Positions 1 to 24,955 of a stretch of DNA of 56,093 nt are shown here, piece by piece. Below the pieces are notes generated by a model. It was given only the letters and a program-made list of their open reading frames with translations. It had not been told where the DNA came from and did not search any database. The stretch is taken from assembly GCA_004563715.1 (NCBI GenBank), contig SIRX01000160.1, positions 1 through 56,093 on the forward strand, given 5' to 3'. A program made the position numbers and the translations under genes. Position 1 is the stretch's first letter; the number at the start of each line of letters is the position of its first letter. This DNA comes from Actinomycetota bacterium (GTDB lineage Bacteria; Actinomycetota; Rubrobacteria; Rubrobacterales; Rubrobacteraceae).

Positions 1-132
1 CTTTACACTTTTGTAAATCAACTGGAGAAAGGGTGTTTGCGGGATGGAGGCTCAGGTAGACGGCGAACCCGCTGCGAAGGCTATTCGGTTATCGGTGACG
101 CCGTCACCGGTCGCTTGCGGGGGTTCAGAAGC

Positions 133-1728: not shown

Positions 1729-1746
1729 TGACAAGGAGCGTAGAGA

Positions 1747-4644: not shown

Positions 4645-4756
4645 GGTAGATACGTCCGGGCGTCTGGAGAAGATAGTACCGGCTGCGGGGTGGCTCCGGG
4701 ACTACGGCCGGGAGGACCTCACCCGCGACGCCTCCGCCGCGCTGGTCATCACCGTA

Positions 4757-7968: not shown

Positions 7969-8104
7969 CCCGTCCGAAGCTCCCTCTCCCCCGACAGCGC
8001 AGCACCGTCACTCTACCAGAGACACCGGGCCGGAACCTCACGAGCCCGAAAAAACGATAGAGTAGGTGGCACGCCCCGCAAGAGATAGACGAGGAGGTAG
8101 AAGC

Positions 8105-8926
8105 GTGGGACTTCTAGAGCGGATGGACGGCGTCGAGGTCGTAGGAAACACCCTGGCTTTTTGGGGGCTGGGACAGGTCGGCGTGGCGATCAAGGGCCCC
8201 ACCGGCGTCATCTACGTAGACCCTTACCTCACCGACTCCGACGGGGCCGGCGGCAACCTGGGCCGCAGCTTCCCGCCGCCGGTACAACCCGATGAGGTCA
8301 CGAACGCCTCGGCGGTGCTCCTCACCCACGCCCACATAGACCACACCGACCCCGACACCCTGCTGCCGCTCGCAGAAGCCTCGCCGGAGGCCTCGTTCCT
8401 CGCCTCTTTTACGAGCCGGGACACGCTCGTCGAGGCGGGCCTAGACACCGGCCGCGTCGCCGTACCCGCGGTGGGCGAGCCCGTCGAGGTAGCCGGGGCC
8501 ACGGTGACGGCGGTGCCCGCGGCGCACACGGAGCTGGAGTACGACCCCGATCGGGGCCACCCCTACCTAGGCTACGTGCTGGAGTGGAACGGAGTCACCG
8601 TCTACCATGCCGGCGACACCGTGGTCTTCGACGGGCTCGTCGAAGCCCTGCGCGGCTGGGACATAGACGTGGCTTTCGTGCCGATCAACGGCCGCGACTA
8701 CTTCCGCACCCGCGAGGGCATCATCGGGAACGCGGACGTCCGGGAGGCGGCGCACCTCGCCGAGGAACTGGACTTTGGCCTGATCGTGCCGACCCACTAC
8801 GACCTCCTGCCTTTTAACGGCGCCGACCCCGGGCACTTCGTGAGCTACCTCTACGACCTGAACCCCGCCCGCAGACACAAGCTGCTGGTGCCCGGCGAGC
8901 TCCTCTACCTAGCGCGTGAGGTTTGA
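8105..8926 (+). CDS. Metallo-beta-lactamase-fold hydrolase (UlaG-like)
   Basis: 273-aa cytoplasmic MBL-fold protein. The metal-binding signature THAHIDHTDP (HxHxDH) is present, followed by VPAAHTE, YHAGDTVVFDG and a late histidine in VPTHYDLLPFN. This set resembles the UlaG/L-ascorbate-6-phosphate lactonase group, but the substrate cannot be read from sequence. GTG 8105 is chosen over GTG 8066 because GAGGAGG at 8091-8097 sits 7 bp before it. It is divergent from the broken capA-like gene; the 136-bp gap must hold both promoters. The GH15 gene follows closely on the same strand. Confidence 0.85.
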   Translation: MGLLERMDGVEVVGNTLAFWGLGQVGVAIKGPTGVIYVDPYLTDSDGAGGNLGRSFPPPVQPDEVTNASAVLLTHAHIDHTDPDTLLPLAEASPEASFLASFTSRDTLVEAGLDTGRVAVPAVGEPVEVAGATVTAVPAAHTELEYDPDRGHPYLGYVLEWNGVTVYHAGDTVVFDGLVEALRGWDIDVAFVPINGRDYFRTREGIIGNADVREAAHLAEELDFGLIVPTHYDLLPFNGADPGHFVSYLYDLNPARRHKLLVPGELLYLAREV

Positions 8927-8980
8927 GCCCGCGCAACCGGGCCGGCAACCCCGCACCGATTACGCCGCCGGGCTTTGGGG

Positions 8981-8986
8981 CATAAT
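8981..8986 (+). promoter_or_regulatory. Candidate -10 element of a leaderless promoter
   Basis: CATAAT ends 7 bp before ATG 8994, and no Shine-Dalgarno sequence lies between. Transcription from this element would begin at or next to the start codon, giving a leaderless mRNA, which is common in Actinobacteria. No convincing -35 is seen. Inference only. Confidence 0.4.
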
Positions 8987-8993
8987 AGACGGC

Positions 8994-10820
8994 ATGGAAT
9001 CGACGAGCTTTTATCCGCTGCAATGGGCTGATGGCTACCTGCCGCTGGAAGACTACGGCCTTATCGGAGACGGCGCGACCGCCGCCCTCGTCGGCCGCGA
9101 CGGCGGTATCCCCTGGCTGTGCGTCCCCCGCTTCGACTCGCCGCCGCTCTTCTGCGGCATCCTGGACCGGGGGCGCGGGGGCTCCTTTACCGTGGCGCCC
9201 GAAGACCTCGTGGAGTCCCGGCAGCTCTACGAGCCGGACACCGGCGTCCTCATGACCGAGATGCGAGGCCGCTCGGGGACGGTGCGGGTCACCGACGCCC
9301 TGACCCTCCGTTCGGGGGCGGACCTGAACGAGGACGCGCCGGCGGCCCGCGGGGAGCTGTTGCGGTCGGTACGCGTGCTGGAAGGGAGCGTCAGGCTGCG
9401 GGTCGTGGTCGAACCCCGGGACGAAGTCCGCGCCGAGAGCCGGGGCGGCGGCCTGGAGCTCAGCCTCTCTTCCAGGCCGGACCTCGACCTGCACCTCTGG
9501 GCCACGGCCCGGCTCGACGGGCTCCGCACGACCCTGGACCTCGAAGCCGGCGACCGGCTCTCGCTCGTGCTGAGCTGGGGTGGCCGTCAGCACCGCTACC
9601 ATCCGGACCCGCCGGACGGCCTGCTGGAATCCACCCAGGAGGCCTGGCGGCGCTGGGTGCGCTGCTTCGCCTACGAGGGCCCGCAAGAACGGCTCGTCCG
9701 GCGCTCCGCGATAACGCTCAAGCTCTGCGACTACCTGCCCACCGGCGCCATCGTCGCCGCCCCCACCTCGTCGCTGCCCGAGTGGATCGGCGGGGAGCGC
9801 AACTGGGACTACCGGTACGCCTGGATCCGGGACGCCGCCTTCTCGGTGTACGCCCTCCGGCGCATCGGCCTGGTGAACGAGGCCCGGAGCTTCCTGGGGT
9901 GGGTGCTGGACGCCGTCGAGCGTCACGGCCGTCCCAAGGTCCTCTACGACCTGGACGGCGAGAACCCCCAGCCCGAGCGCGAGGACCCCGAGCTGGAAGG
10001 CTACCGGCGCTCGCCGCCCGTCCGGTGGGGCAACGCCGCCGACGCCCAGCGCCAGCACGACGTCTTCGGCGAGATCCTCGACTGCGCCTACCAGTGGGCC
10101 ATGCACGACGGCGACATAGACCCCGCCCTCTGGGAGAGGCTCTGCGAGCTGGTCGACGCCGCCGGGAAAGAGTGGACCGAGCCGGACCACGGTATCTGGG
10201 AGGTGCGCACCGCGGGCCGGCCGTTCACCTACTCGGCAGCCCTCTGCCAGGTCGCCCTCGACCGCGGGGCGCGGCTCTCCGAGCGGTTCGGCCTGCCCGC
10301 CGACGCCCGGCGCTGGCACGGGGAGTCGGAGAAGATCCGCCAGGCCATCCTGGACGAGGCCTGGGACCCGGAGATCAACTCCCTGACCGAGCACCTCGGC
10401 GGCGGCGCCCTGGACGCCAGCCTGCTCGCCCTGCCGTTGCGGCGGGTCATCCCGGCGGACCACCCGAAGATGGTCGCCACCACGGCCGCGGTTTCCGAAC
10501 GTCTGGGCGCGGGCGACGGCCTGCTCTACCGCTACCTGGTCGACGAGTCGCCCGACGGCCTCTCCGGCCACGAGGGCGCCTTTCTGCTGTGCAGCTTCTG
10601 GCTCGTGGAGAACCTCGCCCGCCAGGGCCGACTGGAGGAGGCCATGGAGCTCTACGATTCCCTGTGCGCCCGGGCCAACCCTCTGGGCCTGCTCCCCGAG
10701 CAGATAGACCCCTCCGACGGCTCGTTCCTCGGTAACTACCCCCAGGCCTTCAGCCACATTGGCGTGATCTCCAGCGGCTTCAACCTGGCCCGCGAGGTGG
10801 AGAACAGGGAGTCTTCGTGA
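8994..10820 (+). CDS. Glycoside hydrolase family 15 protein (glucoamylase/trehalase-like)
   Basis: 608-aa protein with the usual actinobacterial GH15 order: N-terminal beta-sandwich domain (PLEDYGLIGDGATAALVGRDGG, DSPPLFCGILD), then the (alpha/alpha)6 catalytic barrel with ERNWDYRYAWIRDAAF and the closing GNYPQAFSHIGVI. Acid residues for hydrolysis would lie in the barrel; the first general-acid region cannot be fixed without alignment. Related enzymes hydrolyse alpha-glucosidic bonds of maltooligosaccharides or, in mycobacteria, trehalose. No signal peptide, so it is cytoplasmic. ATG 8994 is preferred over an in-frame ATG at 8916 because similarity starts there. It overlaps the G6PD-like gene by 4 bp (GTGA), so released glucose may feed the pentose phosphate route. 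Confidence 0.88.
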   Translation: MESTSFYPLQWADGYLPLEDYGLIGDGATAALVGRDGGIPWLCVPRFDSPPLFCGILDRGRGGSFTVAPEDLVESRQLYEPDTGVLMTEMRGRSGTVRVTDALTLRSGADLNEDAPAARGELLRSVRVLEGSVRLRVVVEPRDEVRAESRGGGLELSLSSRPDLDLHLWATARLDGLRTTLDLEAGDRLSLVLSWGGRQHRYHPDPPDGLLESTQEAWRRWVRCFAYEGPQERLVRRSAITLKLCDYLPTGAIVAAPTSSLPEWIGGERNWDYRYAWIRDAAFSVYALRRIGLVNEARSFLGWVLDAVERHGRPKVLYDLDGENPQPEREDPELEGYRRSPPVRWGNAADAQRQHDVFGEILDCAYQWAMHDGDIDPALWERLCELVDAAGKEWTEPDHGIWEVRTAGRPFTYSAALCQVALDRGARLSERFGLPADARRWHGESEKIRQAILDEAWDPEINSLTEHLGGGALDASLLALPLRRVIPADHPKMVATTAAVSERLGAGDGLLYRYLVDESPDGLSGHEGAFLLCSFWLVENLARQGRLEEAMELYDSLCARANPLGLLPEQIDPSDGSFLGNYPQAFSHIGVISSGFNLAREVENRESS

Positions 10821-12178
10821 TCCGGCACATGCTGGTCCTCGGCGCCCTGGGAGACCTGGCGGCCCGCTACCTCCTGCCCGCGCTCGCCCGGTTGCGCGAG
10901 GCCGGGGAGCTGCCGGAGGGGTTCAGGGTCTCCGCCCTGGCCCGCGATGACCAGGACACGCCGGGCTACCGCGAGTTCGCGGGGGAGAACCTCGCGGAGC
11001 ACGCCCCCGACACCCCCGAAGCCGCCCGCTCCGGCCTCGTGGAGGCCCTGGAATACTACCAGGCCGACGTCACCGACCCGGAGCGGATAAAGGCGGCCCT
11101 CGGGGACTCCGGCGAGCCGGTCATCGTCTACCTGGCCCTGCCGCCGGCCGTCTTCGCCCCCACCATCGAGGCCCTCGGGGAGGCCGGCCTGCCGGAGGGG
11201 AGCCGGATCGTGGTCGAAAAACCTTTCGGGGAGGACCTGGAGTCCGCCCAGAAGCTCAACCGGCTGCTGCACGACACCTTCCCGGAGGAGGCCGTGTTCC
11301 GGGTGGACCACTTCCTCGGGCTCCAGACGGTGCAGAACGTGCTGGGCCTGCGCTTCGCCAACCGGGTCTTCGAACCCCTGTGGAACCACGACCACGTCGA
11401 GCGCGTGGAGATCGTTTGGGACGAGACCCTGGCCCTCGAAGGCCGCGCCGGCTACTACGACAGCGCCGGGGCGCTGAAGGACATGATCCAGAACCACCTC
11501 CTCCAGCTCCTGTGCCTGGTGGGCATGGAACCCCCACTTACCCTTCACGAGCGCGACCTGCGCGACCGCAAGGTGGACCTCCTTCGGGCCGTCCGCCGGC
11601 TCTCTCCGGAGGAGATCGAGGAGCTGACCGTCCGCGCCCGCTACACGGCCGGCCGCATCGCAGACCGGGAGATACCGGCCTACGCCGACGAGGAGGACGT
11701 GGACCCGGAGCGCGAGACCGAGACCTTCGCCGAGGTCACGCTCTTCGTGGACAACTGGCGCTGGTCGGGCGTGCCGTTTACGCTGCGCTCCGGCAAGGCC
11801 CTCGGCCAGGACCGCTCGGAGGTCTCCATCCACTTTAAACCCGTCCCCCACTCCACCTTCGCCCCGGAGGCCAAACCCGAACCGAACGTGCTGACGCTCG
11901 GGCTCGACCCGGACCGCATCTCGCTGGACATCGAGATCAACGGCCCCGGAGAATCCCTCGACCTGGAACACCTGGAGCTCGGCTCCGAGCTCTCCCCCCA
12001 GAAGATACCGGCCTACGGGCGCCTGCTGCTCGGAATTCTCGAAGGCGACCCCACCCTCTCTATCCGCGGCGACGAGGCCGAGGAGTCCTGGCGCATCGTC
12101 GAGCCCATCCTGGAAGCGTGGAACGCGGACAAAGTGCCGCTGCGCGAGTACCCCGCCGGCTCCGGCGGTCCCAGCTAA
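10817..12178 (+). CDS. zwf: Glucose-6-phosphate dehydrogenase family protein (variant active-site motif)
   Basis: 453-aa NAD(P)-dependent sugar-phosphate dehydrogenase of the G6PD family. Visible are the N-terminal dinucleotide site (LGALGDLAARYLLPAL), VEKPFGEDL, RVDHFLGLQTVQNVLGLRF, FEPLWNHDHVERV and DMIQNHLLQLL. In typical G6PD the signature is RIDHYLGKE, with a lysine that contacts the substrate phosphate; here leucine replaces it (DHFLGLQ). The rest of the fold looks intact, so this may be a paralog with altered substrate or cofactor preference. GTG 10817 overlaps the GH15 stop as GTGA, so the two genes are translationally coupled. It should act in the cytoplasm at the entry to the oxidative pentose phosphate pathway if true G6PD. 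Confidence 0.82.
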   Translation: MIRHMLVLGALGDLAARYLLPALARLREAGELPEGFRVSALARDDQDTPGYREFAGENLAEHAPDTPEAARSGLVEALEYYQADVTDPERIKAALGDSGEPVIVYLALPPAVFAPTIEALGEAGLPEGSRIVVEKPFGEDLESAQKLNRLLHDTFPEEAVFRVDHFLGLQTVQNVLGLRFANRVFEPLWNHDHVERVEIVWDETLALEGRAGYYDSAGALKDMIQNHLLQLLCLVGMEPPLTLHERDLRDRKVDLLRAVRRLSPEEIEELTVRARYTAGRIADREIPAYADEEDVDPERETETFAEVTLFVDNWRWSGVPFTLRSGKALGQDRSEVSIHFKPVPHSTFAPEAKPEPNVLTLGLDPDRISLDIEINGPGESLDLEHLELGSELSPQKIPAYGRLLLGILEGDPTLSIRGDEAEESWRIVEPILEAWNADKVPLREYPAGSGGPS

Positions 12179-12226
12179 CCTCCCGGGCTCGGGGCGCAAC
12201 CCGACTCTGGAACTTACACTACTCTA

Positions 12227-12255
12227 TTGACATATAGATATTAGTGGGATAGTAT
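12227..12255 (+). promoter_or_regulatory. Sigma-70-like promoter for the persulfide/rhodanese genes
   Basis: TTGACA (12227-12232), a 17-bp spacer and TAGTAT (12250-12255) form a near-consensus promoter 42 bp before GTG 12297. The spacer is strikingly AT-rich for this genome (CATATAGATATTAG), which could accommodate a repressor such as an ArsR-type persulfide sensor; that is speculation. Confidence 0.6.
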
Positions 12256-12296
12256 CCGGATCAGCCGGAAGTTTTTGGAGAGCGAAAGGAGCCGGC

Positions 12297-13700
12297 GTGC
12301 TTTTCGAGCGGTTTTACGACGGGGATCTGGCGCAGGCCAGCTACTTTATCGGGTGCCAGCGGAGCGGGGAGGCGGTGGTCGTGGACCCCCGGCGGGACGT
12401 CCGGGTCTACCAGGAGAAGGCCCTGGAGCAGGAGATGGAGATCGTGGCCGTCACCGAGACGCACATCCACGCGGACTACCTGTCGGGTTCTCGGGAGCTG
12501 GCGGCGGCCACGGGGGCCACCCTGTACCTCTCGGACGAGGGGACCGAGGATTGGAAGTACGGCTTCGGCGGCGAGAAGCTCTACGACGGGAGCGGCATCC
12601 AGGTCGGCAACGTGGCCCTTCGCGCGGTCCACACGCCGGGCCACACGCCGGAGCACGTATCCTTCCTGGTAACGGACGGCGCCACCACGGACGAGCCGGG
12701 CTTCGTCCTCACCGGGGACTTCGTCTTCGTCGGGGACCTGGGCCGTCCGGACCTGTTGGACGAGGTAGCCGGGGGGAAAGACACGCGCCTGTTGGGGGCG
12801 CGGCAGACGTTCCGGAGCTTGCGCGAGAAGTTCCTCACGCTGCCGGACTACGTGCAGGTGTGGCCGGGACACGGGGCGGGGAGCGCCTGCGGAAAGGCCC
12901 TGGGGGCCGTCCCGGCCTCCACGGTCGGCTACGAGCGGCTCTTCTCCTGGTGGGGCCGGTTCGTCGAAGAGGACGACGAGGAGGGCTTTGTCCGATCCCT
13001 GCTCGCCGACCAGCCGGACGCCCCGATGTATTTCGGGCGCATGAAGCGGCAGAACAAGAGCGGGCCGCCGGTCCTGGGGGAGAGGCCGCCGCTGGTACGC
13101 CACGGGGCGGCGGAGCTCGAGGAGGTGCTGGAGCGCTGCGAGATCATCTTCGTCGATACGCGGGCGACCGAGGACTTTGCCCGGGGCGCGGTGCCGGGAT
13201 CTCTGAACATCCCGGACGGGGGGCACTTCGCCACCTGGGCCTCCTGGGTCATAGACCCGGAGCAGGACGGAAGGCCCGTCGTCGTGCTGGCGGCCGGCGC
13301 GGAAGGCGCGGCGAGGCTCCGGGACCGGCTCTCCTACGTGGGCGTAGACAACGTCACCGGGTACGCCACCAGCCTGGAGGGCCTGGAAAAGAAGCCGGCC
13401 GGGACCGTCGCGCCCGGCGAGCTGGAGAAGCTCGGAGAGCCCTTTGTCCTGGACGTGCGCGCCCGCAGCGAGTACGAGGCCGGGCACATACCCGGCGCGC
13501 ACCAGCTTCACGGCGGGCGCGTGATGTGGCGTCTGGACGAGCTGCCCGGGGACCGGCCCATCGTCACCCACTGCCAGACGGGCAGCCGCAGCGCGGTGGT
13601 GGCGAGCGCCCTGCGCGCCGCCGGGTTCGAAAACGTATTCGAGCTGGAAGGCAGCTACGAAGGCTGGAAGAAAGCCGACAGGCAGACAATCCCAGCCTAG
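12297..13700 (+). CDS. Persulfide dioxygenase-like MBL protein with two C-terminal rhodanese domains
   Basis: 467-aa protein. Residues 1-240 form an ETHE1/BlhA-type MBL domain: THIHADYLSG (H56, H58, D60; tyrosine replaces the last His of HxHxDH), HTPGHTPEH and LTGDFVFVGDLGRPDL. The three iron ligands used by ETHE1-type enzymes (first His, GHT His, GD Asp) are all present. A first rhodanese domain (about 260-360, VDTRATEDFARGAVPG) has no catalytic cysteine; the second (about 375-460) has the loop CQTGSRS. The family oxidises glutathione persulfide or similar persulfides to sulfite, which the SoeABC-like complex upstream could oxidise further. AAAGGAG at 12285-12291 precedes GTG 12297. Substrate thiol unknown. 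Confidence 0.85.
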   Translation: MLFERFYDGDLAQASYFIGCQRSGEAVVVDPRRDVRVYQEKALEQEMEIVAVTETHIHADYLSGSRELAAATGATLYLSDEGTEDWKYGFGGEKLYDGSGIQVGNVALRAVHTPGHTPEHVSFLVTDGATTDEPGFVLTGDFVFVGDLGRPDLLDEVAGGKDTRLLGARQTFRSLREKFLTLPDYVQVWPGHGAGSACGKALGAVPASTVGYERLFSWWGRFVEEDDEEGFVRSLLADQPDAPMYFGRMKRQNKSGPPVLGERPPLVRHGAAELEEVLERCEIIFVDTRATEDFARGAVPGSLNIPDGGHFATWASWVIDPEQDGRPVVVLAAGAEGAARLRDRLSYVGVDNVTGYATSLEGLEKKPAGTVAPGELEKLGEPFVLDVRARSEYEAGHIPGAHQLHGGRVMWRLDELPGDRPIVTHCQTGSRSAVVASALRAAGFENVFELEGSYEGWKKADRQTIPA

Positions 13701-13717
13701 CGCGGGGACAATGTACC

Positions 13718-13743
13718 GGGCCGCGGGTGAGACCCCGCGGCCC
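13718..13743 (+). terminator. GC-rich hairpin between the MBL-rhodanese gene and the rhodanese gene
   Basis: Perfect 10-bp stem GGGCCGCGGG / CCCGCGGCCC around a 6-nt loop (TGAGAC). No T-run follows, so it may be a weak terminator, an mRNA-stabilising processing structure or an attenuator that lowers expression of the downstream rhodanese and SulP genes. Confidence 0.45.
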
Positions 13744-13792
13744 CGCCCGCGAGAGACAGCAAGAAAGGTTCTCGCCGAGAAAGGGTTTGTAA

Positions 13793-14101
13793 ATGGCCGG
13801 TTACGCGGAGATCTTTCCCGAAGAGCTTGACAATTGGCGGCGCGGCGGCGCGCAGATCGTGGACGTGCGCGAGGGGTGGGAGTACGTGGGCGGCCACGTG
13901 CCGGGCGCGGAGAACATCCCGCTCGGGGAGCTTTCCGGGCGGCTGGGCGAGCTGGAGGAGCCGCTGGTGCTGGTCTGCGCCACCGGCAACCGCTCGGGAC
14001 AGGCCGCCCACTACCTCACCGAGCACGGCTACCTCGTCGAGGTGGCGAACCTGATGGGCGGCACGGAGGGCTGGCGGGAGCGCGGCCTCCCCGTGGCGTA
14101 G
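13793..14101 (+). CDS. Single-domain rhodanese (sulfurtransferase)
   Basis: 102-aa GlpE/PspE-sized rhodanese. DVREGWEYVGGHVPGAENIP is the family N-terminal signature and CATGNRSG the active-site loop, so the persulfide-forming cysteine is present. It should move sulfane sulfur in the cytoplasm; no signal peptide. It lies 92 bp after the MBL-rhodanese gene and 10 bp before the second SulP gene, so the three are probably one operon in a sulfur-oxidation context. An AGAAAGGG ribosome site lies about 10 bp before ATG 13793. Confidence 0.88.
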   Translation: MAGYAEIFPEELDNWRRGGAQIVDVREGWEYVGGHVPGAENIPLGELSGRLGELEEPLVLVCATGNRSGQAAHYLTEHGYLVEVANLMGGTEGWRERGLPVA

Positions 14102-14111
14102 CCGGGCCGGG

Positions 14112-15803
14112 TTGGGAGAAAAGCTGGAGAAGCAGATCCCCGCCGCGGGCTGGCTGCGGCGCTACCGGCGAGCGGACCTGCCGGGGGATCTCTCGGCGGG
14201 GCTCATCGTGGCGGTCATGCTCATCCCACAGGGGATGGCGTACGCGATGCTCGCGGGCCTGCCGCCCGTCGTCGGGCTCTACGCCGCGACGGTCCCGCTC
14301 GCGGTCTACGCGCTCTTCGGCTCCTCGCGCCACCTCGCGGTGGGGCCGGTGGCGCTGGTCTCGCTGCTGACCCTGACCGGCGTCTCTACCCTGGCGGAGC
14401 CCGGCTCGGGCGAGTTCATCGCTCTGGCGGCGCTCCTGGCGCTCATGGTCGGCGTTTTGCAGCTCGGCCTCGGCCTCCTGCGGGCGGGGTTCGTGGTCAA
14501 CTTCCTCTCGCACGCGGTCATCAGCGGCTTTACGTCGGCTGCGGCCGTCGTTATCGGGCTGAGCCAGCTAGGGCACCTGCTCGGCGTGGAGCTTGAGTCC
14601 ACCTCCTCGGTCTTCGCCCTGCTCTGGGACGCGGCGCGGCAGATAAGCGAGGTCAACCCCCTCACGCTCGCCATCGGGCTTTCGAGCATCGCCGCGCTGG
14701 CCGTTTCCAGGAGGGTCGCGCCGCGCTTTCCGGCGCCGCTCCTGGTGGTTGTCCTGGGCACGCTCGCCGTGTACGTCTTCGGCTTGCACGAGCGGGGCGT
14801 AGGCGTCGTGGGCGACGTGCCGCGGGGGATGCCGGGGCTCGCGCTGCCGGCGTTCGGACTCGACTCGGCGGCCTCGTTGCTGACGATCGCCCTCACGATC
14901 TCCTTCGTCGGCTTTATGGAGTCTATCGCCGTCGCCAAGTCCATCGCCAACCGGGAGAAGTACCGGGTAGACGCCAACCGGGAGCTTACCGGGCTCGGGC
15001 TGGCGAACGTCGCGGGCTCGGTGTTCGCGGCCTACCCGGTAACGGGCGGGTTCTCCCGCACGGCGGTCAACTACCAGGCCGGGGCGCGCACGCCGCTGGC
15101 CTCGATCGTCACCGCCGGCCTGGTCTTGCTGACGCTGCTCTTCTTCACCCCGCTCTTCTACTACCTGCCCAACGCGGTGCTGGCGGCCATCGTCATGGTC
15201 GCCGTCTACGGCCTTGTAGATTACGCGGAGCCGGCACGGCTCTTCAGGGTCAAAAAGGCCGACGGGTGGACGCTGCTCACGACCTTCGCCGCCACGCTCC
15301 TCATCGGGATCGAGCAGGGCATCCTGATCGGGGTCGGCTTCTCGCTGGCGCTGTTTATCTGGCGCAGCGCCTACCCGCACACCACCGAGGTCGGCTACCT
15401 GCCCGGAGAAGACGTTTTCCGCAACGTCAACCGCTACCCCGAGGCCGAGCGCTTTCCCCGAACGCTGATCGTGCGGGTGGACGCCTCGCTGTACTTCGCC
15501 AACACCGCCTTCTGGGAGAGCTGGCTCAACGACGCCGTCCTGGACCGCCCGGACCTGCGGTATCTGGTCCTGGACTTCTCCGCAGTGAACGACGTGGACG
15601 CGGTGGCCCTGGAGCGGCTGGAGGAGCTGATGCTCTCCCTCCGGGAACGGGGTGTCGAGATTCACATCGCCGGGATGAAGGGGCCGGTGCGGGACATCGT
15701 GGAGAAGGCCGGCTGGACAAAGGAGTTCGGCGCGAACATCTCCCACCTGTCCATCCAGCACGCGCTGGAGGCCGTCGGGGTGTGGCGAAAAGCGTCCCCG
15801 TAG
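14112..15803 (+). CDS. SulP family anion (sulfate) transporter with STAS domain, copy 2
   Basis: 563-aa SulP permease, clearly paralogous to the one at 4757. Both share AAGWLR, PQ-MAYA-LAGLPP-GLYA, GFSRTAVNYQAGARTP-type segments and a C-terminal STAS domain (LVLDFSAVNDVDAVALERL). TTG 14112 is the first possible start after the rhodanese stop; GTG codons further in would cut the conserved N-terminus. Two SulP copies around one sulfur cluster suggest separate roles, for example sulfate export and another anion (bicarbonate, sulfite), or a duplication. Direction of transport cannot be inferred. Confidence 0.9.
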   Translation: MGEKLEKQIPAAGWLRRYRRADLPGDLSAGLIVAVMLIPQGMAYAMLAGLPPVVGLYAATVPLAVYALFGSSRHLAVGPVALVSLLTLTGVSTLAEPGSGEFIALAALLALMVGVLQLGLGLLRAGFVVNFLSHAVISGFTSAAAVVIGLSQLGHLLGVELESTSSVFALLWDAARQISEVNPLTLAIGLSSIAALAVSRRVAPRFPAPLLVVVLGTLAVYVFGLHERGVGVVGDVPRGMPGLALPAFGLDSAASLLTIALTISFVGFMESIAVAKSIANREKYRVDANRELTGLGLANVAGSVFAAYPVTGGFSRTAVNYQAGARTPLASIVTAGLVLLTLLFFTPLFYYLPNAVLAAIVMVAVYGLVDYAEPARLFRVKKADGWTLLTTFAATLLIGIEQGILIGVGFSLALFIWRSAYPHTTEVGYLPGEDVFRNVNRYPEAERFPRTLIVRVDASLYFANTAFWESWLNDAVLDRPDLRYLVLDFSAVNDVDAVALERLEELMLSLRERGVEIHIAGMKGPVRDIVEKAGWTKEFGANISHLSIQHALEAVGVWRKASP

Positions 15804-16073: not shown

Positions 16074-17042
16074 TCAGGGCAACCCGGCCAGGGTCTCGGC
16101 AAGGGCGTAGATCTCCGGGTCCAGCGGGCGCATCTTCCCTACGATTTCCTTCAGCGGCACGCGATTCACCTTGCGGCCGTTGAGCCCGGCCATCACCCCG
16201 GACTCGCCGTCGGCGAGGGCTGAGATCGCGGCGGCCCCCAGGCGGCTGGAGAGGATCCGGTCGTAAGCCAGCGGCGCCCCGCCACGCTGAACGTGACCGA
16301 GCACCGTAAGCCGGGACTCGAAGGTGCCGGGGGCGTCGTTTATGTACTCGTGCAGCTCCCGGGCGGAGATCCTCGCCCCCTCCGCCGCCACGACTATGAA
16401 GTGGGGCTTGTCCGCGGCCGCCGACTCCCGGAGCGCGGCCATTATGCCCTGCGGGTCGGGCTCGAACTCCGGCACCAGCACGGCCTCCGCGCCGCCGGCC
16501 AGGGCGGACATGAGCGCCAGGTACCCGCAGCGGCGGCCCATAACCTCCACCACGTGCGCCCGCTGATGGGAGCTGGCGGTGTCCTTTATGCGGTCTATGG
16601 CCCCCAGCGCCGTGTTGAGCGCCGTGTCCACCCCCACCGCTATGTCCGTGCCCCACACGTCGTTGTCTATGGTGGCGGGTATCCCGGCCACCGCCACGCC
16701 GAGCTCCTCCAGCCGGAGCGCCCCGGTGAGGCTCCCCTCTCCCCCGGCTACCACCACGCCTTCGATCCCCGCCGCCGCCAGAGCCTCGACCCCGCGCTGC
16801 CGGCCCTCCGGGGTCATGAACTCCGGGGAGCGGGCGGTGCCGAGCACGGTGCCTCCGTGGTGTATTATGCCGCCCACGCTGCGGTTCTCGAGAGGCCGCA
16901 GGCGTCCCTCCAGAAGGCCCTGATAACCGCGCTCTATCCCCACTACCTCCCACCCCCGGGAGAGCGCTGCCCGGGCGACGGACCGGACCACCCCGTTCAT
17001 CCCCGGGGCGTCGCCCCCGCTCGTCAGCACCGCTACCTTCAT
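16074..17042 (-). CDS. pfkA: 6-phosphofructokinase
   Basis: 322-aa group I phosphofructokinase (glycolysis, fructose-6-phosphate to fructose-1,6-bisphosphate). Seen are the N-terminal TSGGDAPGMN, GGEGSLTGA, ATIDNDVWGTD with the catalytic Asp, EVMGRRCGYLA and GHVQRGG. The residues that separate donors are glycine in GGEG and alanine before TIDND; PPi-dependent enzymes usually have Asp and Lys there, so ATP is the likely donor. Glu replaces the usual magnesium-binding Asp of GGDGS, an oddity. Length is normal. It is 14 bp downstream of the baeRF gene on the same strand, probably cotranscribed. Confidence 0.92.
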   Translation of the reverse strand: MKVAVLTSGGDAPGMNGVVRSVARAALSRGWEVVGIERGYQGLLEGRLRPLENRSVGGIIHHGGTVLGTARSPEFMTPEGRQRGVEALAAAGIEGVVVAGGEGSLTGALRLEELGVAVAGIPATIDNDVWGTDIAVGVDTALNTALGAIDRIKDTASSHQRAHVVEVMGRRCGYLALMSALAGGAEAVLVPEFEPDPQGIMAALRESAAADKPHFIVVAAEGARISARELHEYINDAPGTFESRLTVLGHVQRGGAPLAYDRILSSRLGAAAISALADGESGVMAGLNGRKVNRVPLKEIVGKMRPLDPEIYALAETLAGLP

Positions 17043-17056
17043 AGGCGTTCCCCCGC

Positions 17057-18172
17057 TCAGAAGCGCGTGAGGCCGGTCAGGCCACCGAACTCGCCGCGCA
17101 AGGTCTCGTATACCTCGCTCCCGTCACGCACGAACTCTACCCGGGCCCCGCGGGTGTCCGCAAGCTCGGCCAGCACGTCCATGAGGGGTCTCGTACGGGT
17201 CGGACGTCCGGCGTAGGCCTCTTCCAGGGGCGAGCCCTCCGGCACGGCGACGCCGTCCTCGTCCGACCAGCGGGCTTCGCCCTCCAGGGGCCAGGAGACG
17301 ATCAGGTGATAGACCCGTCCCTCCTGCAGGGCTTCCAGGGTCTCCCTCACGCCCCGGACGCCACGCTCGCGGGCCTTCTCCAGAAGCTCCGCCTCCCGTT
17401 TGCTCTCGGCCCGGCGCCGGGCGTCGGAGATACGGTCCACCAGCTCGCCCTCCGGCGCGTCGGCCGGGAGGCGGGCCTCCTCCGCCACCCGCTCCCGGAG
17501 TTCCTCGGGGAGCGTCGCGCGAAACCCGGCGGTCCTCTCCTCGGTGCCGGCCAGGATCAGGGCCCCGATCCCCTGCCGTTTCACCTCCCGCCGGACGTAC
17601 TCGGCCATCTCTTTGTAGAAGCGCCGGGTGTTCTCCTCCACGCGGTCCTCGAAGTCGTCCCGGGAGGAACCGCCCCGCGGCGTGACGTTGGACGGAGAGA
17701 TCGTCAGCTCCCGCCAGCCGCTGGTGTTCAGCGGGTTCTCGGCCTCGGCAACCTCCTCGATCTCACCCAGCGAGGTCACCAGAAACCGGAACCTCTCCCG
17801 GTCGAGGAGCAGGACCCCGTAGCTCTCGTACTCGTTGAGCGCGAGCATGAGCGGGGCCACGTCGGGCTCGCCCCAGCGAACCTGCTCGGGGAGATCCAGG
17901 TTCAGCCGGTAAGCCTCGAACAGCCCATTGGGGTCGGCAAAGAGGACGATGGTCCGCGCGCGGGGCGGCTCTTTGCGGAAAAGCTCCAGGGCGCGGTCCG
18001 CAACCTCGCCCGGAGCCCCGCACTCTTTCAGGGCGGCCTTGAACCGGGTGACGTAGGCTTTACCCTGGTTCTCGGGATGGGCGGGGTTGACGTTCACGTA
18101 CGCGGAGAGAACCGGCCCCGGATGGTCCGAGATGCGGTCCATGAGCCCTTTTATGACCTCGGTTGACGCCAC
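17057..18172 (-). CDS. Bacterial eRF1-like (baeRF family) protein, probably baeRF10-like
   Basis: 371-aa protein with the layout of bacterial homologs of archaeal/eukaryotic release factor 1: PVLSAYVNVNPAHPENQGKAY at the N-terminus, YGVLLLDRERFRFLVTSLGEIEEV in domain 1, RGGSSRDDFEDRVEENTRRFYKEM where relatives carry a GGQ/GGWSQ-like loop, GALILAGTEERTAGF in domain 2 and a C-terminal domain ending in LADTRGARVEFV. Residues GGSS replace GGQ, so peptidyl-tRNA hydrolysis is unlikely. The wider family includes the ribosome hibernation factor Balon and mycobacterial Rv2629; membership in that functional group is inference. The stress proteins a few kilobases away fit a dormancy role. Confidence 0.65.
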   Translation of the reverse strand: MASTEVIKGLMDRISDHPGPVLSAYVNVNPAHPENQGKAYVTRFKAALKECGAPGEVADRALELFRKEPPRARTIVLFADPNGLFEAYRLNLDLPEQVRWGEPDVAPLMLALNEYESYGVLLLDRERFRFLVTSLGEIEEVAEAENPLNTSGWRELTISPSNVTPRGGSSRDDFEDRVEENTRRFYKEMAEYVRREVKRQGIGALILAGTEERTAGFRATLPEELRERVAEEARLPADAPEGELVDRISDARRRAESKREAELLEKARERGVRGVRETLEALQEGRVYHLIVSWPLEGEARWSDEDGVAVPEGSPLEEAYAGRPTRTRPLMDVLAELADTRGARVEFVRDGSEVYETLRGEFGGLTGLTRF

Positions 18173-18298
18173 GGTCGTCCTCCTCTCAGAGCCTTTCTAC
18201 TAGACTCTACACCAGGAACGGATACGTGCCCGGGCGCGGTGCGCCGGGCGCCGGTGGGTTATCCTCGATTTCGGAGCTTTCAGTAAGGGGGACGGACA

Positions 18299-19952: not shown

Positions 19953-20846
19953 TTACGCGTCCGCAGGATAGACCAGCACCGGCCCCTCCGCGGCCCGGAG
20001 CACCTTGGTCGAGACGCTGCCGAGGCGGAAGCGCCGGATCGGCCCGAGCCCCCGGCTGCCGACGGCGATGAGCGTGCTGTGCACGCTCCTGCCGCGGGCG
20101 GCCCGAACCAGGTCTTCCGCCGCGTCACCCACGGCGATGGAGATCCTCGGCCGGCCGCCGAGCAGTCCTTCGAGCTCCCCGGCCCGATCTCCCAGCTCGT
20201 TCTCCGCCCGGCGCAGCTCGTCGTCGGTCATCCGGGGGTCCATGCGGCGGCCCTCCTCGTACACCTTGGGGAGCTCGGGGTAGGTCCGCACCAGCGTCAT
20301 ACCCGCCCCGGTGAGGCGTCCTATCTCCGCGGCCAGCTCCCCCGCCTTGCGGGCCGGGCCGGAGCCGTCCTCCCCCACGACGACGTGCTCCAGGGGCCAG
20401 GCGTCCTCGCCGCCGCGCAGCAGGAGTACCGGCAGGTGGGCGTGGTGTACGACCCCCTCGGAGACGCTGCCCACCGCGAGCCGCTTCAACGCTCCTACGC
20501 CGCGGCTGCCCATCACCAGCAGGCCCGCGCCCACCTCCCCCGCCAGGTAGAGCAACTCGTCGGCCACCGCCGCGCGCGTCCTCAGGTGGGACTCGGCCAC
20601 GGTCCCGCCGAGCTGCTTTATGCGCTCGACCTGCCCGGCCAGAACCTCCTCGGCCTGCAGCTCGTAGTAGGAGGAGTAGATCTCCGGCATCGCGGGCCAG
20701 GCCCCGACGGGAAGGTGCCAGACGTGCGCCACGTGCAGCTCCGAGCCGGTGTTCTGGCCGAGATCCACCGCCGCCCGGGCGGCCAGCTCCGCGTCTTCCG
20801 ATCCGTCGGTGGCCAGCAGCATCCTGTCGGGAAACGAGCTACTCAT
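19953..20846 (-). CDS. Tandem-domain universal stress protein, copy 3 of the operon
   Basis: 297-aa UspA-type protein with two domains. Each begins with a beta-strand and nucleotide-site aspartate (MLLATDGSEDAELAARAAVDL; HVVVGEDGSGPARKAGELA) and carries a GSRG...GS phosphate-binding loop (GSRGVGALKRLAVGSVS; GSRGLGPIRRFRLGSVS), so both may bind ATP. It starts inside the end of the previous gene (8-bp overlap, ATGAGTAG) and is last in a three-gene minus-strand operon. Family members act in stress survival; the specific signal is unknown. Confidence 0.88.
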   Translation of the reverse strand: MSSSFPDRMLLATDGSEDAELAARAAVDLGQNTGSELHVAHVWHLPVGAWPAMPEIYSSYYELQAEEVLAGQVERIKQLGGTVAESHLRTRAAVADELLYLAGEVGAGLLVMGSRGVGALKRLAVGSVSEGVVHHAHLPVLLLRGGEDAWPLEHVVVGEDGSGPARKAGELAAEIGRLTGAGMTLVRTYPELPKVYEEGRRMDPRMTDDELRRAENELGDRAGELEGLLGGRPRISIAVGDAAEDLVRAARGRSVHSTLIAVGSRGLGPIRRFRLGSVSTKVLRAAEGPVLVYPADA

Positions 20847-21783
20847 CGGGTGTGGCTCCTCCTTTTTCCTCGCTCTCTTCGCGTACTACCAGCACCGGGC
20901 AGTGGGCGTGCCGGACGATGCTCCCGGAGGCGCTGCCCAGCAGGGAGCGCTCCATCCGGCCCAGCCCCCGGTTGCCCACCACGACGAGCCCGGCTTCTAG
21001 CTCTTCGGCGAGGTCGACCACCTCCACGTCCACCCTGTCTCCCATCCTGAGGTGGGCTCCGGCGACCGCGCCGCCCCTGCCCTCGATAAGCTCTACCTGC
21101 TCACCGAGGACCTTCCGGCGGTCTTCCTTGATCTGCTCGTACTCGGACGTTTTCACGTAGTCGTGTACGAGCAGGTGATACTCCACCCCCACGTGCACGA
21201 GGTGCAGCTCGGAGCCGGTCTTCTCCGCAAGTTCCAGGGCAATCACGGCGGCGCGCTCCGCCTCCTCCGAGCCGTCGACGGCCAGCAGGATCCTGGTGGG
21301 AAACACGCCTTCGTCATCACCGGCGGGCCGTCCCTCCCGGTCCCCGCGCACCACCAGTACCGGGCAGTGGGCGTGGCGCACCACGGACTCCGAGACGCTC
21401 CCCAACAAAAGGCGTTTCAACCCGCCCAGCCCCCGGCTACCCACCACGATCAGGCCAGCGCCGGCCTCCTCCGCCAACGCTACTATCTGCTCGTCCGGGC
21501 GGCCCACCGGGCCCGTGCGGAGATGGGCCTGCGCGACGCTGCCGCCGGTAGCGGTAACCCGCTCCACCTGCTCTTCCAGTTGCCGCCGGGCCGCTATGCG
21601 GTGTTCCTCCAGTATCGCCTGGTAGCCGTGCAGCTCGGGACGGTAGACCACCGGCAACTCACCCACGTAGACCACGTGAAGCTCGGAGCCGGTCTTCTCC
21701 GCCAGTTCTACGGCGGCCCGGGCCGCCAGCATCGCCTCTTCCGAGCCGTCGACGGCCAGCAGGATTCTTCCCAGAACGCTCAC
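20839..21783 (-). CDS. Tandem-domain universal stress protein, copy 2 of the operon
   Basis: 314 aa from GTG 21783, chosen because homology begins with SVLGRILLAVDGSEEA; the longer open frame is non-homologous. Both Usp domains carry intact ATP loops (GSRGLGGLKRLLLGSVS; GNRGLGRMERSLLGSAS). The two halves are similar to each other (ILLAVDGSEEA in both, AHCPVLVVR in both), so the gene looks like an internal duplication. It starts 8 bp after the stop of copy 1 and overlaps copy 3 by 8 bp. Confidence 0.88.
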   Translation of the reverse strand: MSVLGRILLAVDGSEEAMLAARAAVELAEKTGSELHVVYVGELPVVYRPELHGYQAILEEHRIAARRQLEEQVERVTATGGSVAQAHLRTGPVGRPDEQIVALAEEAGAGLIVVGSRGLGGLKRLLLGSVSESVVRHAHCPVLVVRGDREGRPAGDDEGVFPTRILLAVDGSEEAERAAVIALELAEKTGSELHLVHVGVEYHLLVHDYVKTSEYEQIKEDRRKVLGEQVELIEGRGGAVAGAHLRMGDRVDVEVVDLAEELEAGLVVVGNRGLGRMERSLLGSASGSIVRHAHCPVLVVREESEEKGGATPDE

Positions 21784-21791
21784 GGGGCAGC

Positions 21792-22703
21792 TTACCTCTC
21801 CGGGGTCTCGGCGGGATGCGGGCAGACCAGGACCGGCCCCTTCGACCCGCGGAGGACCTTGGTCGAGGTGCTCCCCAGGGCCATGCGCTTTACCGCCCCG
21901 AACCCCCGGGAGCCGACGGCTATCAGGGCAGACTCGTCGCTGCCGGCGATCATGTCGAGGATCACCGCCGCGCTGCCGGACAACACCCGCGTTTGCGGCC
22001 GCACGCCCAGCGTATCTTCTATCTCCTGTGCCCTCTTTTCGAGCGCCTGCTTGTCCTCCTCCATCGTGCGCTCGACCATGCGCTCGTAGAGGCTCAACTG
22101 GTCCGACGGAAGGTCCACGGGCGCGGGGGACGACGGATGCGCCCTCACCAGCAGCGCGGGCGCCTCGAAGAGCCTGGCGAGGCTTACGGCCAACCCCTCC
22201 GCTTTCCGGGCGTCCTCCGAACCGTCGTCGCCGATAACGAACCGCTCCGGGGGCCACGTACGCTCCCCGGCGCGCACCACCAGAACCGGCACGTGGGCGT
22301 GGTGTGCGACCTCTTCGGAGACGCTGCCCAACGCTATCCTGCGGAACGCGCCGAGACCCCGGCTGCCCACTACGATGAGGTCCACCCCGGCCCGCTCGCC
22401 GGCGTCGAAGATCACGTCCGCCGGCCGTCCCTCTTCCAGGTAAGACTCGGTAACGGTCCCGCCGAGCTTTTCTATGCGTTCCAGGTCCCGGTTGAATGCC
22501 CTCTCCGCCTGATGGCTGTAAGTTGCCTCCAGGGACTGGTGGGAGACGCCGGGATAGGCGTACTCGTGGGGTCCCTGCCAGGCGCGGACCACGTGCAGTT
22601 CCGCGCCGGTCTTGTTCGCGAGATCCACCGCCGCCCGGGCGGCGGCCGCCGCGTCTTCGGAACCGTCCGTCGCCAGCAGTATCTTCTCCGGTAGAATGCC
22701 CAT
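21792..22703 (-). CDS. Tandem-domain universal stress protein, copy 1 of the operon
   Basis: 303-aa, two-domain UspA-type protein and first gene of the operon. ILLATDGSEDAAAAARAAVDL and FVIGDDGSEDARKAEGLAVSL open the domains; GSRGLGAFRRIALGSVS and GSRGFGAVKRMALGSTS are the ATP-binding loops. GAGAGGAGG lies just before ATG 22703. The promoter should be in the 99-bp gap between this gene and the DksA-like gene. Sequence similarity with copy 3 (SEDAxxAARAAVDL, GSTSTKVLR) suggests tandem gene duplication. Confidence 0.88.
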   Translation of the reverse strand: MGILPEKILLATDGSEDAAAAARAAVDLANKTGAELHVVRAWQGPHEYAYPGVSHQSLEATYSHQAERAFNRDLERIEKLGGTVTESYLEEGRPADVIFDAGERAGVDLIVVGSRGLGAFRRIALGSVSEEVAHHAHVPVLVVRAGERTWPPERFVIGDDGSEDARKAEGLAVSLARLFEAPALLVRAHPSSPAPVDLPSDQLSLYERMVERTMEEDKQALEKRAQEIEDTLGVRPQTRVLSGSAAVILDMIAGSDESALIAVGSRGFGAVKRMALGSTSTKVLRGSKGPVLVCPHPAETPER

Positions 22704-22802: not shown

Positions 22803-23213
22803 CTACCCTCGCTTCCGCTCGCGCGCTTTCTGGGCTTCCAGAGTGTAGATGGCCTCTGGAACGGCCTCGAGCCGCCCCCGGGGGATGGGCTCTCCGGTAT
22901 CGTCACAGACTCCGTAGCTACCCTCGCCGACCTTCTCCAGCGCCCGCTGGATCAACGCCAGCCGGCGCATGATGGCCTGGTCCAGGGCGGTGTCCACTTC
23001 GCCGGCCAGTATGCGGGCGGCCACGTCCTCGGCGTCGGGACGTGCGTACTGGCTGCTCTCGCTCCACTCCCGCTCCTCTTCTTCTATCCCGGCATGCGCC
23101 CGCAAGAGCATCCGCCGCATGTCTTCCAGCCGCGCCCGCTGACGCTCGACGAACTGCGGGTCCAGGGCCTCCCTTCCAGCTATAGGATGGCCGCTCTCTC
23201 TCACCGCGTCCAC
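22803..23213 (-). CDS. DksA/TraR-family protein with degenerate zinc finger
   Basis: 136-aa protein with a long coiled-coil N-terminal region (ERQRARLEDMRRMLLRAHAGIEEEE), acidic residues near its tip (DAEDVAARI), RALEKVGEGSYGVCDDTGEPIPRGRLEAVPEAIYTLEAQ at the C-terminus. In canonical DksA this last segment carries CxxC...CxxC; here only one Cys (GVCDDTG) remains and the others are Thr and Leu. Such cysteine-poor members can keep the fold and work without zinc. Expected role: binding in the RNA polymerase secondary channel, modulating transcription under stress. GTG 23213 is the start. Confidence 0.8.
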   Translation of the reverse strand: MDAVRESGHPIAGREALDPQFVERQRARLEDMRRMLLRAHAGIEEEEREWSESSQYARPDAEDVAARILAGEVDTALDQAIMRRLALIQRALEKVGEGSYGVCDDTGEPIPRGRLEAVPEAIYTLEAQKARERKRG

Positions 23214-23402: not shown

Positions 23403-23428
23403 ACTTAGCTTGTCAGCCCGTTGAAAAA
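23403..23428 (+). repeat. IS terminal inverted repeat, left
   Basis: 26 bp beginning ACTTAGCTTGTCAGCCCG, the exact reverse complement of 25035-25060. Confidence 0.93.
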
Positions 23429-24955
23429 GGCCCGGACCAGCGGAAATTGGCGGCCTGAGAGGAGGCCACGGTGCGGACGACGCGCCGTTGGCGTGACGCG
23501 CAGGGCCACGACCTGGGCCGGGCGTCTCGGCCCCTTCCGGCCGAAAGCAAGCAACCGCTTGACGTTCTGGCCGGCGGCCACCAGCAGGGCCTCGATGTTC
23601 ACCTTCTCCAGCCGCCTGAGCCTGAACCTGCGTAAACCGTGCCAGTCCTTGGCTTCACCGAACAACGGCTCCACCCATACCCGCCTCTTTCGCAGTGCCT
23701 TCTCGTAGGCGAAGGTACCACGGTAGCTCTTGACCCGATCTACGTAGCGCTCGTCGCGGTGGCGCAGGACTTGGCGGCCCGTCTTGTTGTTGGTGCATCG
23801 AGATCTCATCGAGCAGGAGTCGCAGATACCCGGCTCGGTCTTGTAGATGACCTGGTTTCTGGCGGTTCTGAAGGTCTTGGGCCTCAAGATCTCGCCTGCC
23901 GGACACCGGTAGAGGTTCTGTTCGGGGTCGTAAGCGAACTCCTCCTTGCTGAAAAAGGGGCGTGCCTTGCCCGCTCCGGTCAGGGGCACGAAGGCACGGA
24001 TGCCAGCGCGCTCGATCGCTGCAATGTTCTCGGTGGTGCCGTAGGCAGTGTCGCCGGTGATCTGGTGGGGTCTGAGCTTCCATCGGAAGGCGCTGCGCCA
24101 TAGCAGGTCGAGCATCGGGGCGTTCTCGGTTACCTCAAAGGGGGTTACGAGGACGTTCAGGATCACCCTGGCTTTCCCGCCGTCCACAACGTAGTGAGCG
24201 TAGTAGCCCAGGTGCGATCCCTTGCTGTCCCGACGCTTCATTGGCGAGGCATCCGGGTCGGTCTCGGAGCACAGGAAGTCGGCGGTGCGCCTGTACCAGA
24301 CGCCTTTTATCTCGCGCCGCTGCCTGCCCGTCCTCGAGATCCAGTCGCCCCTGGCGGCGTTCTCGGCCAGCAAGGCCTCATCGTTTGCGGTGGGAAGCGA
24401 TGCCCCCGCGTCGCTGTTCTGCGCACCGGAGGGCTCCTCCTCGAAGAGGTCGTCCAGGTGCTCTTCCACGTAGAAGCGGGGACCGATCGAGTCGAGGGAG
24501 GCGTCAGCGTCAACTTTGGTGGCGTCGAAGTACAGCTCCTTGCCCCAAACCAGGCCCGCTTCGGCGCACATCTCGACGACCTTCTCGAAGAAGGCCCTGA
24601 AGATGCCGAGACCGTAGCGCTCCCTGATTCTGGTCAAGCTGGAGTGGTCCGGCAAGGTCTCGAAGAGGTCGTAGCCCAGGTACCAGCGTACGCTCAAACG
24701 ATCTGCTGCGACCTCCATGAGCCGCCGTTCGGAGCGGATGCCCTCGAAGAACATGACGAGCTGGAGCTTGAAGAAGACCACTGGGTCCACGGAAGGCCTG
24801 CCTCCCCCAGCGTAGAGCGGGCGCACCAATTCTCGGGCGAAGGAGAGGTCGAGATCTGCTTCCAGGCGACGGTAGAAGTGGTCCGTGGGGATCAGATCCT
24901 CAAGCGAGACGTCGCGGGGCAACGGCGAGAAGCTGCGGATCTTCGTGCCCATCAT
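23405..24955 (-). CDS. IS1182-family DDE transposase
   Basis: 516-aa transposase. The N-terminal part (LIPTDHFYRRLEADLDLSFARELV, SVDPVVFFKLQLVMFFEGIRSERRLMEV) is typical of IS1182. DDE residues can be placed: Asp in LYFDATKVDADAS, Asp in ITGDTAYGT and Glu in VEPLFGEAKDWHGLRRFR. A four-cysteine patch (CRCPAGE region, CDSCSMRSRC) lies before the last acidic residue. The start is ATG 24955 after GGAGGT. The frame is unbroken, so the element may be active. Confidence 0.93.
   Translation of the reverse strand: MMGTKIRSFSPLPRDVSLEDLIPTDHFYRRLEADLDLSFARELVRPLYAGGGRPSVDPVVFFKLQLVMFFEGIRSERRLMEVAADRLSVRWYLGYDLFETLPDHSSLTRIRERYGLGIFRAFFEKVVEMCAEAGLVWGKELYFDATKVDADASLDSIGPRFYVEEHLDDLFEEEPSGAQNSDAGASLPTANDEALLAENAARGDWISRTGRQRREIKGVWYRRTADFLCSETDPDASPMKRRDSKGSHLGYYAHYVVDGGKARVILNVLVTPFEVTENAPMLDLLWRSAFRWKLRPHQITGDTAYGTTENIAAIERAGIRAFVPLTGAGKARPFFSKEEFAYDPEQNLYRCPAGEILRPKTFRTARNQVIYKTEPGICDSCSMRSRCTNNKTGRQVLRHRDERYVDRVKSYRGTFAYEKALRKRRVWVEPLFGEAKDWHGLRRFRLRRLEKVNIEALLVAAGQNVKRLLAFGRKGPRRPAQVVALRVTPTARRPHRGLLSGRQFPLVRAFFNGLTS

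Follow-up and report, generated by a model that had tools for sequence, protein, structure and literature searches.

A Balon-like baeRF family-10 protein with a degenerate GGQ loop in a Rubrobacteraceae genome

The first account of Balon-type ribosome hibernation dates from 2024 and includes structures of Psychrobacter and mycobacterial proteins (PMC10901736). In that account, a β-loop of the Balon C-domain contacts EF-Tu, and Hsp20 is a reported neighbour of Balon genes. Among the baeRF families, most were regarded as non-catalytic by Burroughs and Aravind (2019; PMC6514570) on the grounds of poor loop conservation, and family 10 was described there as the family most notably retaining the glutamine, hence potentially catalytic. 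The same work suggested that a two-strand insert of many baeRFs is a possible degenerate zinc ribbon.

The window analyzed here is a 56,093-nucleotide stretch of a genome of the family Rubrobacteraceae (GCA_004563715.1, contig SIRX01000160.1). One of its genes had been read, from the letters alone, as encoding an eRF1-like protein with a degenerate GGQ loop and a possible function in ribosome hibernation. The Rubrobacter lineage is known for radiation and desiccation resistance, and a literature search found no paper linking Rubrobacter with ribosome hibernation.

The gene and its predicted fold

The gene has 371 codons, a GTG start, a TGA stop and an intact frame in the ORF listing and the sequence. 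The gene, its parts and its flanks are as follows.

17057..18172, minus strand: baeRF family-10 / Balon-like protein of 371 aa (ORF, Pfam, structure and profile)
18179..18184, minus strand: Shine-Dalgarno sequence AGGAGG, 6 nt 5' of the GTG (read by eye)
17864..18172, minus strand: N-terminal domain, residues 1-103, of the eRF1/Balon decoding-site type without NIKS (AlphaFold and fold search of residues 1-104; Balon profile match from residue 8)
17408..17863, minus strand: middle domain baeRF_family10, residues 104-255 (Pfam 2e-34 over 103-252; structure)
17651..17677, minus strand: degenerate catalytic loop RGGSSRDDF, residues 166-174 (sequence and alignments)
17060..17407, minus strand: C-terminal Pelota/eRF1_3 domain, residues 256-371 (Pfam eRF1_3 4.3e-6; fold match)
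17195..17275, minus strand: degenerate zinc-ribbon hairpin, residues 300-326 (alignments)
16074..17042, minus strand: phosphofructokinase gene pfkA, 14 nt downstream of the baeRF gene (PF00365, 5.4e-102)
18173..18298, no strand: 126-bp gap up to a divergent LLM oxidoreductase gene, within which the baeRF promoter is expected (ORF listing)

The baeRF gene and pfkA are probably co-transcribed. A sigma-70 consensus scan of the 126-bp gap found no promoter. The protein is acidic overall (D+E 70 versus K+R 53), and the NIKS and GGQ motifs are both absent from it. Pfam baeRF_family10 (PF18854) ranked first of the 12 families listed, with 2e-34 and 119.3 bits against a cut-off of 27.1, and eRF1_3 was matched at 4.3e-6. 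PF18854 was also the top Pfam family in all 10 homologues sampled.

The structure was predicted with AlphaFold2 from 57 sequences without templates; the Balon PDB entries were released in 2024. The model (pLDDT 87.5, pTM 0.81) contains all three eRF1 domains, and its only segments with pLDDT below 50 are residues 141-156 and 165-167. The baeRF fold, which had appeared intact to the sequence-only reading, is thus present in the model. In the fold search, the top match was the Msmeg1130/Balon structure 8v9l (VIA-align Z 29.8, 344 residues, 3.3 Å), and Foldseek ranked Msmeg1130-Balon 8v9j first (E 1.9e-20). P. urativorans Balon (8rd8, 8rdv, 8rdw; Z 23.8) and Rv2629 (8v9k; Z 21.3) followed with the same three-domain fold. 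The release factors ranked lower, although all three domains were matched (eRF1 Z 18.0 at 8.8 Å; aRF1 Z 17.0 at 10.2 Å), and whole Pelota/Dom34 chains scored far below Balon, with Z 10.5-12.8 across 188-239 residues. The Pelota C-domain 5eo3_A reached Z 13.5 over 87 aligned residues. The comparison with Balon and Rv2629 that had been proposed as a check thus ranked Msmeg1130, P. urativorans Balon and Rv2629 first, with eRF1, aRF1 and Pelota behind them; in this predicted structure, the eRF1 domains were not missing and the protein did not group with a non-ribosomal baeRF subgroup.

Part of the Balon-eRF1 score gap may come from domain arrangement, because the N-domain folded alone (residues 1-104, pLDDT 87.2) gave a near tie, with Z 10.4 for Balon versus 9.2 for aRF1.

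Profile comparisons were made with an alignment (A2) of the window protein and 56 of the 76 homologues; a smaller alignment (A3) held 38 of those 57 sequences. The A2 profile matched Balon Msmeg1130 over nearly its full length (6e-32, residues 8-371), and likewise Rv2629 (2.2e-16, residues 16-371) and P. urativorans Balon (1.3e-6, residues 10-371). In contrast, matches to the full-length eRF1 entries and aRF1 4af1 started only at residue 107-109, and that to aRF1 3agk at residue 63.

The window protein is nevertheless far from these proteins in sequence, with 14-19% identity to the Balon structures: 18-19% to Msmeg1130, 14% to P. urativorans Balon and 19% to Rv2629. The cut-offs of the NCBIfam hibernation-factor equivalogs were far from reached: 70.5 of 480 bits for the Msmeg1130 model (NF052288), 43.5 of 320 for the Rv2629 model (NF052289) and 29.1 of 330 for NF052287, the AOC03_06830 family, which we take to be the P. 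urativorans Balon model. Msmeg1130 carries a 9-residue N-domain insertion relative to the family profile that the window protein lacks, and the segment ahead of the GG loop is longer in the window protein. The decoding-site HP motif and the bL27 trap loop of Balon had no clear place in the window protein: an H32-P33 pair is present, but H32 is among the most variable columns. For the trap loop and the A2602 lasso of Balon, the model has low confidence at residues 141-156 and 165-167. In the C-domain, a stretch of like length aligns with the Msmeg1130 hairpin, with strands predicted at 299-303 and 308-310. The window protein shares with Balon-type proteins an aeRF1-like three-domain fold, nearest to Balon, without NIKS and without GGQ.

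Relatives, duplication and neighbourhood

Matches were found in 37 of the 60 genomes searched, own genome included. They comprise 30 of 36 same-family genomes, all at E 8.8e-69 or better with some relatives truncated at contig ends, so the gene is not a chance frame; the other seven are among 24 genomes outside the family, with best E from 7e-4 to 7.5e-12. Across the phylum, PF18854 was matched in 96 of 197 genomes and above the cut-off in 91. A scan of GTDB genomes gave 93 relatives, from which 80 loci were kept; 21 (L053-L073) are close Rubrobacter-type loci and the remainder is mainly from Chloroflexota. An alignment of 13 sequences, including the window protein, holds 37 invariant columns.

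The genome itself (G000, 3.47 Mb) contains a second family-10 copy at C29:76230-77336, 49% identical to the window copy. Two full copies are also present in G008, G009 and G019. The genome G013 has one intact copy and a second (C17; L042 6342-7482) that is broken or an assembly error, since it is split across two frames; its two pieces were excluded from the family alignment and from both trees. Next downstream of the own-genome paralogue (L002, L034 6231-7340) lies a 2'-5' RNA ligase-like/2H phosphoesterase gene.

The trees drew 55 and 50 of 134 loci rows. In the 50-row tree, the Rubrobacteraceae rows formed a single clade (100/100) separate from six Msmeg1130-type rows (100/99); of the four among these six that were run against the NCBIfam Msmeg1130 model, two exceeded its cut-off. 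In the 55-row tree, six Rubrobacteraceae rows formed a clade (97/93) that L007 adjoined without resolution; in the 50-row tree, L007 joined three of these six rows (96/82). The window copy was the first branch in a 30-row clade (100/96) of the 55-row tree, beside R. taiwanensis copy a, and the own-genome paralogue was placed deep within this clade. Therefore, the window copy derives from an old duplication. Orthology of the window copy with R. taiwanensis copy a was considered but not adopted; the free tree split the two (96/85), although the AU test did not reject a joint clade (p 0.11).

Family searches identified three Usp genes and one DksA-like gene near the baeRF gene.

19953-20846, minus strand: Usp protein
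20839-22257, minus strand: Usp protein
21792-22703, minus strand: Usp protein
22803-23213, minus strand: zf-dskA_traR (DksA-like) protein

The sequence-only reading had pointed to these three Usp genes and the DksA-like gene. They do exist, 1.8-5 kb from the baeRF gene and beyond two opposite-strand genes (LLM oxidoreductase and isochorismatase), but as an argument for function they failed: in a tblastn search of 32 homologous loci, short ones and repeats of one place among them, none of the window neighbours (zwf, rhodaneses, sulP, pfk, LLM, isochorismatase, Usp, DksA) recurred apart from one weak LLM match (26% over 171 aa, L065). Neighbour genes were therefore rejected as functional evidence. 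A 516-aa ORF at 23405-24955, like the DksA-like gene on the minus strand and immediately upstream of it, looks IS transposase-like by eye. At the start of the window, positions 37-15803 look sulfur-metabolic, with a 4Fe-4S/NrfD protein and a molybdopterin oxidoreductase (37-4644), SulP-type transporters (4757-6355 and 14112-15803) and rhodanese proteins (12297-14101).

At no fewer than 7 of the 80 loci (2 of 21 close relatives and 5 of 59 others), an Hsp20 gene lies 600 bp or less from the family-10 gene; these counts are lower bounds from two queries, with at least 1 kb on each side at 67 loci. These loci are L054 (9194-9655), L066 (7241-7693), L092, L093, L102, L103 and L109; the five outside the family are convergent with the family-10 gene at about 100 bp. 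No Hsp20 gene lies beside the window gene. One HPF query at E 1e-4, which distant HPFs may escape, found no HPF near family-10 homologues at 91 loci; elsewhere in its own genome there is one HPF gene, a 195-codon frame.

The catalytic loop and the zinc ribbon

The degenerate loop noted from the letters alone is real. Human eRF1 RGGQSALRF aligned without gaps to the Rubrobacter profile and placed its glutamine on S169. Among 31 further phylum loci rows, 13 read GGW[SAE]Q, typically QGGWSQARFQR, and a gap-free alignment of this form with the window RGGSSRDDFED, made by eye, placed its glutamine on R171, whose codon CGG is one step from CAG. The catalytic glutamine is thus missing from the loop in both registers. 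Taking GGQ as the sole yardstick was dropped, because 39 of 97 outside-family rows have the loop glutamine as GGW[SAE]Q or in a GGGSQ-like form (17 of the 30 rows with a GGW loop, 22 of the 41 with a GGGSQ-like one). For this reason, the Arg at 171 is a telling change besides the Ser at 169.

Among the 37 same-family rows, window included, place 169 is Gln only in the own-genome paralogue, whose loop RGGQDQDSF has Gln in both registers (GGQDQ) and is the sole eRF1-type GGQ. Place 171 is Gln in 10 rows, Arg in 6, His in 5, Tyr in 2 and Asp in 1; in the other 13, two residues are inserted, which makes the assignment of their column 171 a guess. This column ranks 21st in variability among the 371. 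The loop glycines are better kept (G167 in 27 and G168 in 32 of the 37 rows), and the Gln/not-Gln label changed at least seven times on the tree. The loop of L007 has A at +1 and R at +3 after the GG. With Gln so rare at 169, in a minority of rows at 171 and the column variable, the pattern within the family is not one expected of a hydrolase under selection and argues against a kept hydrolase function. The well-conserved Gln used to characterize family 10 in PMC6514570 is not found in the window protein, which reads GGSSR where other members often have GGWSQ or GGGSQ. Because that paper named family 10 as the notable Gln-keeping exception, the Rubrobacteraceae branch departs from its expectation.

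The four-Cys ribbon is also lost in the window protein, unlike in many other members of family 10. Its zinc-ligand places 303, 306, 318 and 321 are S, D, E and A, whereas relatives have CCCC or CDCC. CCCC was found in 7 of 37 family rows, namely a six-row clade and L007; the remaining 30 rows are CDCC/CECC (14), SDSS/SESS (11) and other Cys-free sets (5, SDEA of the window among them). No row of the 37 has one or two Cys at the four places. Intact, reduced and lost ribbon forms all occur within one bacterial family. Outside it, the C-terminal C..C-C..C pattern is held in 62 of 97 rows. The ligand set of the ribbon changes as a whole between Cys and Ser versions (window 17195-17275; L036 6204-7313, L006, L002, L008 and others). 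In three of the four two-copy genomes (G008, G009 and G019), a CCCC copy is paired with a Cys-free copy, and in G000 both copies are Cys-free. A scan with a mycobacterial-type Zur box consensus found no such box in the window, a result that says little here, since the consensus comes from another lineage and the host genome is GC-rich. Judging from the alignments, the hairpin insert of the window protein may be the same element as the EF-Tu-contacting β-loop of Balon.

A probable Balon-type role and its alternatives

We consider it probable, with moderate confidence, that the gene product is a non-hydrolytic A-site factor of the Balon type acting in ribosome hibernation. Its nearest characterized relatives block idle ribosomes in stress, so it probably silences ribosomes as well; from them we infer ribosome binding, A-site occupancy, translational silencing and stress expression for the window protein. 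In such a mechanism, the protein would enter a vacant 70S A site. The N-domain would sit at the decoding centre, while the middle domain would face the peptidyl-transferase centre and the C-domain would point toward the factor-binding site. Since the catalytic Gln is absent, peptidyl-tRNA would be left unhydrolysed, and the occupied ribosome would stay silent in stress or dormancy. The protein would probably act together with the genome's own HPF.

A Dom34/Pelota-like rescue factor would also enter the A site without hydrolysis, of stalled ribosomes in this case, and would split or clear them rather than store idle ones. Such rescue was proposed for non-catalytic baeRFs by Burroughs and Aravind (PMC6514570), and Pelota belongs to the same superfamily, lacks the catalytic Gln and matches in its C-domain. 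However, whole Pelota/Dom34 chains fit far worse and over fewer residues than the 344 of Balon, which makes this reading unlikely. It is very unlikely that the protein is a peptidyl-tRNA hydrolase still active through another residue or the GG-loop backbone. The GG is kept, the own paralogue reads GGQDQ and family 10 was termed potentially catalytic in PMC6514570, but Gln is gone from both registers, column 171 is one of the more variable and 13 of 37 rows carry the two-residue insertion at the Gln place.

The remaining alternative, which we regard as improbable, is that the window copy is a decaying duplicate or has moved off the ribosome to another role. The genome has two copies, the window copy lacks both Gln and zinc ligands, its neighbours are unlike those of the relatives compared, and the protein is acidic. 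Nevertheless, the frame is intact behind a good Shine-Dalgarno sequence, the 37 invariant columns include the window protein, and its deep branch at the base of the 30-row clade indicates that the copy is not recent. The Balon-type A-site factor is therefore preferred.

More speculatively, and in our view improbably as a whole, family 10 in the Rubrobacteraceae would be a release-factor lineage turning into a hibernation factor, with Gln repeatedly lost or changed, the zinc ribbon switching between CCCC/CDCC and SDSS, and zinc supply choosing the EF-Tu-docking silencer. Such a choice by zinc is conceivable because a four-Cys and a Cys-free copy coexist in three of the four genomes with two full copies. 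It would parallel what zinc-free ribosomal-protein paralogues, known in M. smegmatis (PMC8866557), do for the ribosome.

By itself, the window gene adds a rather ordinary member to its family; a more interesting lead is given by the paired and zinc-switching copies around it. Coexisting Gln-bearing and Gln-free, and zinc-binding and zinc-free, copies offer a natural series in which to study how a release factor becomes a ribosome plug.
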